A DNA stretch of 47,841 bases from Candidatus Woesearchaeota archaeon. GTDB taxonomy: Archaea; Nanobdellota; Nanobdellia; Woesearchaeales; GW2011-AR9. The stretch spans positions 1 through 47,841 of the forward strand of contig JACPNA010000057.1 of assembly GCA_016185725.1 (NCBI GenBank), written 5' to 3'. A model generated the notes under the pieces. That model worked only from the letters and a program-made list of their open reading frames with translations, searched no databases and was not told where the DNA came from. Shown here in pieces: positions 22,845 to 44,301 of the stretch (the first letter of the stretch is position 1; each line of letters opens with the position of its first letter). A program made the translations under genes and the position numbers.

Positions 22845-22993
22845 TAAAATATGCTTTTTCCACCAGTGTGTTTCACTGGTGGTACACATCCACTAACACT
22901 TAAAGTGGAAAAAGCATGGTCAGAAAACCGACCCGAGCCCGCAGGCGAGCATGCCACCAGTCTATTGACTGGTGGTGATCAGTTTTCTTTGAC
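22845..22993 (+). repeat. Two-stem palindromic element, copy A (149 bp)
   Basis: One of three near-identical 149-bp copies (with 39010-39158 and 44153-44301); each pair differs at 4 positions. First module: ATGCTTTTTCCAC (22851-22863) pairs perfectly with GTGGAAAAAGCAT (22905-22917), with an inner hairpin CCACCAGTG/CACTGGTGG. Second module: CAGAAAACCGACC pairs with the right-end arm, enclosing a GCCCGCAGGC mini-hairpin and CCACCAGTC/GACTGGTGG with a TATT loop. In this copy the right arm is decayed (GATCAG instead of GGTCGG). A frame starting at the ATG is open in all three copies but follows from the palindromes. Short gene-like remnants flank it. Confidence 0.88.
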
Positions 22994-25476: not shown

Positions 25477-26283
25477 TTACTTCTCTTTAATTTTATTATT
25501 CTTAACATCATTCACAATTTTTTCTGTAATTTCTATAACTATACCAAAATTTATTACTCTATTTTCTATCCAGCCTCCACCATACATCCCGCCAGCAATA
25601 AAAAGTAGGTTATACCTCCCAAATCCAACAATTTTCAAATATTGTTCAAAAGATGTATCAAAAATAGAGTAATAAAAAAAAAGACCTAAATATGCTGCAG
25701 CAATTCCGAATAAATCAAACATAGTTGCAAATCCCCTGCACAAAGAAAGGTTACCCTTTTCTTCTTTTGATGAGATAAGTGACCCCCTTCCTAATACATA
25801 CCCAACTGTGAACAATCCTCCTGTTACAATTACCCCAAAAATAGGAACTAAATTTGAAATAATTCTAGTTGTAATAGTAAAATATGAGTTTTCCACCAGT
25901 GGTTGCTCGCAAGCAACTCCGGAACAAAGTGACCGGGTATAGTTCCGCTGGTGGCGTAGCCACAACAATCTTCACTTCGATTAGAAAACTCATGGTTGGA
26001 AAACCACCTCGAGCGAAGCGAGCATGCATGAAATTTGAAAACTATCAAATTTCAGCACTGAAAACAAATATTTTTTTGTTTTCATGTGCCACTAGTGTTG
26101 AGCCCGTAGGCGATCACAAGAAATGTGAGGAACATCACATTTCTGTGCTGAAATGAAATCGATGTTTCATTTCATGCACCAGTGGTGGGCGGTTTTCCTT
26201 GACAATAGAAACAATCCTGCCGAGAACACTATCCCAATAAATCCAAACAATATTGCCCATACCCAGCATTTTATTTTATTCAT
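25477..26283 (-). pseudogene. Membrane protein gene interrupted by repeat copy D
   Basis: From the ATG at 26283 (site GGTGAT) 27 residues are read, MNKIKC followed by a hydrophobic segment ending GLFLL. The frame then enters the repeat and stops. Beyond the repeat, TITTRIISNLVPIFGVIVTG and further membrane segments continue to the stop at 25477. Removing exactly 324 bases (25879-26202) rejoins both halves in frame into a 160-residue protein with several membrane segments (VWAILFGFIGIVFSAGLFLL, then about 3 more). I therefore call it one interrupted gene. A 5-base AATAG occurs on both sides; if that is a target duplication the frame would not be restored, so the event is not fully settled. Function unknown. 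Confidence 0.6.
25878..26203 (+). repeat. Two-stem palindromic element, copy D (326 bp, expanded)
   Basis: It has the same ends as copy A (TAAAATATG, and CTTGAC on the right). First stem: ATGAGTTTTC pairs with GAAAACTCAT; second: GGAAAACC pairs with GGTTTTCC. Both stems differ from copies A-C with matching changes on the two arms. The interior carries many perfect hairpins: GAAATTTGA/TCAAATTTC, GAAAACAAA/TTTGTTTTC, AGAAATGTGA/TCACATTTCT, TGAAATGAAA/TTTCATTTCA, GTTGCT/AGCAAC and a GCCCGTAGGC mini-hairpin. It interrupts the membrane-protein gene at 25477-26283. Confidence 0.85.
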
Positions 26284-39009: not shown

Positions 39010-39158
39010 TAAAATATGCTTTTTCCACCAGTGTGTTTCACTGGTGGCACACATCCACTAACACATAAAGTGGAAAAAGCATGGTCAGAAAACCGACCCG
39101 AGCCCGCAGGCGAGCATGCCACCAGTCTATTGACTGGTGGTGGTCGGTTTTCTTTGAC
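39010..39158 (+). repeat. Two-stem palindromic element, copy B (149 bp)
   Basis: Nearly identical to copies A and C (4 differences from each). Both modules are intact: ATGCTTTTTCCAC/GTGGAAAAAGCAT and CAGAAAACCGACC with the matching right arm GGTCGGTTTTCT. The enclosed GCCCGCAGGC and CCACCAGTC/GACTGGTGG hairpins are as in copy A. No target duplication is seen. A minus-strand gene remnant lies next to it at 39186-39284. Confidence 0.88.
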
Positions 39159-41732: not shown

Positions 41733-41956
41733 AATATGAGTTTTCCAATCTAGATGTGACTAGATGCGACTACGCCACCAGTTAAACTATACACCGGCGG
41801 AAAACTCATGACCAGAAAACCGCTCCGAGCGAAGCGAGCATGCATGAAATTTGAAAATTATCAAATTTCAACACTGAAAGCAAATAGTTTTTTGTTTTCA
41901 TGTGCCACTGTGTTGAGCCCGCAGGCAATCACTCTTGGTGGGCGGTTTTCTTTGAC
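41730..41956 (+). repeat. Two-stem palindromic element, copy E (227 bp)
   Basis: It has the same ends as copies A-D. First stem ATGAGTTTTCC/GGAAAACTCAT (11 bp), second AGAAAACCGC/GCGGTTTTCT. The interior shares with copy D the arms GAGCGAAGCGAGCATGCATG, GAAATTTGA/TCAAATTTC and GAAAGCAAA/TTTGTTTTC and a GCCCGCAGGC mini-hairpin; copy D's last two extra hairpins are absent. It starts inside the stop of nop10. Confidence 0.85.
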
Positions 41957-44152: not shown

Positions 44153-44301
44153 TAAAATATGCTTTTTCCACCAGTGTGTTTCACTGGTGGTACACATCCA
44201 CTAACACTTAAAGTGGAAAAAGCATGGTCAGAAAACCGACCAGAACCCGCAGGCGAGCATGCCACCAGTCTATTGACTGGTGGTGGTCGGTTTTCTTTGA
44301 C
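44153..44301 (+). repeat. Two-stem palindromic element, copy C (149 bp)
   Basis: Nearly identical to copies A and B (4 differences from each) with both stems intact, including GGTCGGTTTTCT on the right. Its CCACCAGTC/GACTGGTGG and mini-hairpin loops match those copies; the mini-hairpin reads ACCCGCAGGC. No gene fragment was recognised at its edges and no target duplication was seen. Confidence 0.88.

Follow-up and report, generated by a model that had tools for sequence, protein, structure and literature searches.

A membrane-protein reading frame on one contig of a woesearchaeal genome runs into an interspersed repeat, here called element D, and resumes on its other side. Was a single gene broken at this place, what kind of element broke it, and what directs such an element to its site? 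The window, that is, the whole stretch of 47,841 nucleotides analysed, is contig C49 of a 1.03-Mb, 62-contig metagenome-assembled genome of a Woesearchaeota archaeon (G000), and its proteins are archaeal. A search recovered the repeat where an earlier sequence-only reading had placed it, and the 27 codons from ATG 26283, the remainder beyond the repeat and the in-frame rejoining of the two parts are all confirmed on the minus strand.

The split gene and the edges of the insertion

The minus strand is open for the 27-codon start, upstream of which lies a GGTGAT ribosome-binding motif, and for a further 134 codons (stop included) beyond the repeat, a stop-free run with a chance of about 6e-5 at 36% G+C. 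An order-wide search of 353 genomes found uninterrupted, single-ORF orthologues in G438 (E value 3e-18), G418 (6e-15) and G439 (1e-9), all three from other families of the order, and the first 26 residues and the rest of the protein, each taken alone, give an orthologue match that beats all 500 shuffles. Four junction versions of the joined protein were aligned to these orthologues. The product of 161 residues, which corresponds to a 321-nt insert, has the top or joint-top score against all three and crosses the junction without a gap, and it outscores the 160-residue product proposed earlier in each case (204 versus 196, 194 versus 182 and 140 versus 133). Because both halves match single-ORF orthologues across a gap-free junction and GGTGAT precedes the ATG, we conclude from these sequence comparisons that the gene was formerly whole and was then broken by D. 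The orthologue search and junction alignment had been proposed with the sequence-only reading, and they bear out its central claim that a mobile repeat broke a membrane-protein gene without target duplication.

The exact edges come from a second interrupted gene. On contig C52 of the same genome, a copy of another type (A-type) splits a gene whose orthologue in genome G018 is 86% identical and uninterrupted. On the element strand, the empty site in G018 reads CCATAAAA followed by TCTAAGTC, that is, CCATAAAA^TCTAAG, and the right flank of the C52 copy reads TTGAC followed by TCCAAATC; the left target of this copy was lost in a deletion of roughly 24 nt, and the target was therefore read from the orthologue. 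It follows from this comparison that TAAAA is kept on the left, that the element runs from T to TTGAC and that no duplication arises. Applied to D, this rule gives the 321-nt insert of Table 1, the length that the protein alignment also prefers, and from these edges the empty D site is expected to read ..AATAGTAAAA^AATAG... The previous edges (AAAATATG..TTGA; 25879-26202, 324 nt, 160 residues) are corrected accordingly to 25883-26203, 321 nt and 161 residues. They had been taken as fixed by restoration of the frame, which sets the length only modulo 3 (321 is also a multiple of 3) and thus fails to fix the edges by itself.

Table 1. Features of the window around element D and further copies of its family (caret, point of insertion).
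Feature	Position	Strand	Remarks
Interrupted membrane-protein gene, 5' part	26204..26283	-	ATG 26283; orthologue match
Interrupted membrane-protein gene, 3' part	25477..25882	-	Stop 25477-25479; orthologue match
Element D, 321 nt, T..TTGAC, non-autonomous IS200/IS605-type (PATE-like)	25883..26203	+	
Retained target TAAAA, left of D	25878..25882	+	C52 empty site; 22/23 copies
D left-end foldback	25884..25993	+	Folding; outer-helix covariation
D left outer arms	25884-25894 (ATGAGTTTTCC), 25983-25993 (AGAAAACTCAT)	+	Inner hairpins between
D right-end foldback	25998..26198	+	GGAAAACC (25998-26005) with GGTTTTCC (26191-26198); encloses two nested units; folding, covariation
D right terminal motif TTGAC	26199..26203	+	Common to complete copies and Y1-coding relatives
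Nested unit 1, middle GCAC, target TG	26027..26088	+	Empty site GAGCATG^CCAC; model hit 26024-26089
Nested unit 2, middle GTGC, target CA	26117..26178	+	Empty site GGCGATCA^CCAG; model hit 26114-26179
A-type copy, 144 nt	22850..22993	+	After TAAAA 22845-22849
A-type copy, 144 nt	39015..39158	+	After TAAAA 39010-39014
A-type copy, 144 nt	44158..44301	+	After TAAAA 44153-44157
D-type copy with one nested double-hairpin unit	41735..41956	+	After TAAAA 41730-41734

Other accounts of this locus fare poorly. If the two halves had never been one gene, and were chance open frames or separate genes flanking the repeat, one could understand why the codon-usage signal is weak and why the joined product has no homologue in 96 near-relative genomes or GTDB contigs (nor in viral contigs); the single-ORF orthologues, which match both halves in the same order, rule this out and leave it hardly any credence. 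That D is a classical MITE mobilized by a DDE transposase is very improbable. This reading would make a 5-bp target duplication of the pentamer AATAG, which does stand on both sides of D, as was noted before; however, AATAG is not repeated around the other copies, in keeping with the earlier remark that these show no duplication, the C52 empty site is free of one, and a duplication at D would disrupt the orthologue-supported reading frame. In addition, the ends of D (TATGAG.. and ..CCTTGAC) are not inverted copies of each other, so that D is without terminal inverted repeats, and they match those of Y1-coding elements. The AATAG pair is thus a coincidence beside the TAAAA target, as the C52 rule and the protein alignment both give 321 nt after TAAAA. 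Removal of D from the RNA in the manner of an intron, which would leave the gene unbroken, is equally hard to believe: the length of the insert is a multiple of 3 and D is highly structured, but there is no Rfam match, the copies are mostly intergenic, the gene is antisense to the element at both D and C52, and coding sequence has been deleted next to the C52 copy, for which reasons we reject it. Neither the D nor the C52 comparison with uninterrupted orthologues shows a target duplication.

A family with foldback ends and its candidate transposase

The family of D counts more than 40 non-autonomous copies. Relatives of the D type lie on many contigs of the genome (blastn), and an A-type query finds at least 40 copies, about 30 of which are at least 95% identical. 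Complete copies share one plan, in which TATG.. directly follows TAAAA on the left, two adjoining foldbacks come next and ..TTGAC closes the right end. Their single-strand folding is far beyond that of shuffles (z of -8.2 and -7.9), and the outer helices covary, with paired changes at 8 of 22 pairs among nine copies from five genomes. When copies were gathered without anchoring on the flank, 22 of 23 had TAAAA, and nothing farther out on either side of them is clearly conserved. No second clean case emerged when further genes split by A-type copies were sought by frame alone, and viral contigs do not contain the element pattern.

Some copies depart from this plan. A minority of 30 A-type copies show either a truncated right end or an altered left junction without TATG; L246, L253, L254, L259, L260, L261 and L269 lack both TATG and TAAAA on their left side but are otherwise intact, and the clustering of the breaks within a few bases suggests adjacent deletion or alternative left cleavage. 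The gene at L064 (C52, 1-1262) was struck twice by the same element family, by a Y1-coding element (left end TAAAA followed by TTCTTTTTCC..) and, farther on, by the A-type short copy with the deletion at its left junction. L012 (C25, 15043-15198) is chimeric, with an A-type left arm (ATGCTTTTTCC), a D-type right arm (GGAAAACTCAT) and a mismatched outer helix, and lies in sequence that is also found after a Y1 gene on C4. D itself has, at its left end, an extra hairpin-containing block (GTTGCTCGCAAGCAAC..; window 25902-25938) that is missing from most copies and resembled by blocks in L023, L024 and L045.

D holds no transposase gene within its 321 nt, and the Pfam Y1 hits of the genome, six Y1_Tnp (IS200-like) loci, lie elsewhere. 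The locus on contig C5 has relatives in G026 (L094, the same sequence as L104 from a Woesearchaeota MAG) and G031 (L097, the same as L105), and the named relatives of its transposase are mostly from Candidatus Woesearchaeota. On one side of these Y1 genes stands a left hairpin, CCACCGGTC..GACCGGTGGCGTAG or a near form of it, and on the right side a foldback, ..CGAGCCCGCAGGCGAAGCATGCCACC.GTG..CAC.GGTGGTGGTCGCTCGC (again with near forms), followed by TTGAC. The end motifs of Y1-coding elements from three genomes are those of the short copies, whose outer left helix was not seen by eye in the Y1-coding elements. The C5 protein matches Pfam Y1_Tnp above the cut-off (E value 3e-8) and has the motifs HVH (HUH) and YLDKQ (Y---Q); its predicted fold, of moderate confidence (mean pLDDT 63.5), has ISDra2 and IS608 TnpA as best Foldseek hits, and a phmmer search of the Y1 protein against the PDB returned nothing. 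Because the ends are shared, we infer that a C5-type TnpA acts on D. Elsewhere in the genome, two tandem Y1 genes on C4 (L061/L063) have a different set of end sequences, and a Y1 remnant on C22 (L065) has two in-frame TGA stops.

Elements of this general kind have been described from Haloquadratum walsbyi as palindrome-associated transposable elements, or PATEs (PMC3119063), which are transposase-free, have no terminal inverted repeats, make no target duplication, have near-terminal palindromes in common with IS605-type elements and often receive insertions of smaller transposase-free repeats. We class D and its kin as PATEs because they agree with that description in lacking a transposase, in the palindromes shared with IS605-type elements, and in the absence of inverted terminal repeats and of a duplication; D also carries smaller transposase-free nested repeats, as is also reported for PATEs. 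Unlike PATEs, the D family has larger, two-level foldbacks with covarying outer helices as its ends, TAAAA as its target, and, within D, nested repeats that are symmetric double hairpins with a target-matching middle. The likeness to ISDra2 and IS608 lies in a Y1 HUH transposase of the same predicted fold (the C5 protein), in hairpin ends, and in duplication-free insertion 3' of a short, fixed target (PMC7290912, PMC6006769, PMC8266576). In those elements the site is chosen by a guide adjoining each hairpin (PMC7290912, PMC6006769, PMC8266576); in the IS608 type, this short guide pairs with the cleavage site, and an altered guide redirects insertion (PMC8266576, PMC6006769). D, in contrast, is gene-less, and guide pairing (right end, GTT with TTGAC; left end, TTTT with TAAAA) is at this stage a suggestion: the possible guides, GTC or GTT before the right foldback facing GAC at the end, and TTTT before the left inner hairpin facing AAAA, are too invariant for a covariation test.

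The account that we consider very probable is that D is a non-autonomous IS200/IS605-type PATE, which inserted 3' of TAAAA in an intact gene and encloses two older, independent units, each matched to a target dinucleotide. A Y1 (HUH) TnpA from related elements in the same genome would bind both foldback ends as single-stranded DNA, cut 3' of both the left-flanking TAAAA and the right-end TTGAC, and join the D strand 3' of a new TAAAA without making a duplication. The two 62-nt units would have been there earlier, each 3' of a dinucleotide to which its central G-n-n-C is complementary, and were probably placed by the same kind of guide pairing. As an interrupting element D is of a known kind, with unusually clean evidence. 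The case illustrates, through orthologous empty sites, gene disruption by hairpin-ended elements within a reduced DPANN genome, and its analysis settles the target and ends of such elements. None of the papers in the collection searched brings Woesearchaeota, transposon and MITE together.

Double-hairpin units and their target dinucleotides

Compared with the minimal copy L009, D has extra blocks, two of which are double hairpins, and one more such block is found in other copies. These units follow the design n2n3 ^ C A, stem-loop, G rc(n2n3) C, second stem-loop, T G n2n3, and in this family of genomes their stem-loops have a 10-bp stem and a 6-nt loop. Their foot is n2n3-C-A with n2n3 variable, and neither GTAG nor GTGG stands 5' of it. 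A covariance model finds units in 41 of the 49 genomes of the family, with up to 74 hits per genome (both strands counted), and also in a few other families of the order, and all of their stems show strong covariation.

The flanking dinucleotides agree with the middle of the unit. We grouped 94 distinct units into 42 clusters; the covariance model leaves the flanks unpaired with the middle, and the units were scanned for without their flanks. The left dinucleotide is complementary to the middle G-n-n-C in 39 of the 42 clusters and the right one in 40, compared to a mean of about 12 and never more than 24 after shuffling; left and right are unlike in three clusters. In other families, where loop sizes differ, the agreement is 12 of 13.

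Hosts with and without a unit differ by a net 62-nt insertion immediately 3' of n2n3. Nine empty sites, with four dinucleotides (TG, CA, AG and TA), each fit the middle of the inserted unit. Besides those of the units within D (Table 1), they are CACTGGTG^GCG (L004 against L009; a unit of 58 nt with a shorter first hairpin), GCGAAG^CGAG (middle GCTC), GGGATG^CCAAT, TTCA^CTGG, GCATG^CCACC (the second of this kind), GGGGTA^TGAA (against another genome) and AATCTGGTA^, in a tRNA-Ser-like copy beside an intact paralogue. The two GCATG^CCAC sites have homologous hosts and may fall short of full independence, and the comparisons for L128 and L181 are ambiguous. The right-hand dinucleotide of the unit could either have been brought by the element or be a 2-nt duplication; the data fit both.

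The middle G-n-n-C matches the target and, relative to the second hairpin, occupies the place of an IS608-type guide, and the reading that we find likeliest, by a modest measure of confidence, is that it acts by guide pairing. The main rival, which we hold to be rather unlikely, is that the match reflects upkeep of a lower stem, through selection for pairing or through template-switch correction of imperfect palindromes. Paired changes in all unit stems do indicate that some process maintains pairing, and the three clusters with unlike dinucleotides would also suit such upkeep, but the flanking dinucleotide is already present in the nine empty sites, and in four versions. It therefore belongs to the target and was matched at or before the arrival of the unit. 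With guide pairing as the preferred reading, we tentatively propose, with less assurance than for the pairing itself, that the 62-nt units form a class of archaeal mobile DNA that has not been described before, in which a per-copy G-n-n-C guide picks the dinucleotide, several addresses coexist in one genome family, and the mover is an enzyme still to be found. At the least, these nested units represent a new variant, perhaps even a class of their own.

A Y1-like enzyme may also act on the units. Against this, the search for a Y1 gene came up empty in several unit-rich genomes: none was detected in G001, G016, G017, G064 and G002 despite many units, and G030 has a single weak, broken Y1 stretch. 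The link between the presence of a Y1 gene and the number of units is weak (one-sided Mann-Whitney p = 0.05).

Several known systems resemble the units in part. As in IS608, the target is complementary to a guide-like sequence inside the element, whereas in the units, unlike ISDra2 and IS608, this guide-like middle varies from copy to copy. With REP/BIME sequences and their TnpA-REP (RAYT) they have in common many short palindromes per genome and hairpin pairs in opposite orientation, and in one such system changing a short motif shifts the choice of cleavage site (PMC6006769, PMC8266576); in contrast to REP/BIME, the units have no GTAG foot, their stems vary widely with compensation, several unit-rich genomes gave no Y1 gene, so that no resident REP-flanked TnpA-REP gene was found in them. 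The small mobile repeats (SMR) of Haloquadratum (PMC3119063) are likewise small and transposase-free, make no target duplication, often lie inside PATEs and have an unknown mover, but they are defined by terminal inverted repeats, and the passages used here describe neither a double-hairpin design nor a guide match. The double-hairpin elements of Allomyces mitochondria and the hairpin elements of sponges are short and dispersed, some of them double, and are said to be without flanking duplications (PMC2800124). We see in them a likeness of shape alone and claim no homology; they are organellar, and no guide-like middle is described in the passages used here.

Guide-directed site choice in IS608 and REP systems is known from laboratory-made changes (PMC8266576). 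If the guide reading holds for the units, they would be a natural record of retargeting, in which guides appear to have shifted in step with their targets inside a single family of short hairpins; the rule would be testable from sequence and simple oligonucleotide assays, and would raise the question of which enzyme moves the units.

Individual units show further nesting and repetition. At L077 (G034, contig C197, 2000-2370), a tRNA-Ser-like copy has a unit in its D-loop region, and an additional nested hairpin insertion encloses an intact tRNA-Ser-like sequence. A unit at L051 (G017, C2:1021691) seems to hold another hairpin unit in the loop of its second hairpin. In G002, nine double-hairpin hits of equal score, on contigs C2, C8, C23, C31, C46, C47, C48, C51 and C52 and several of them at contig ends, are probably part of a longer, recent repeat.
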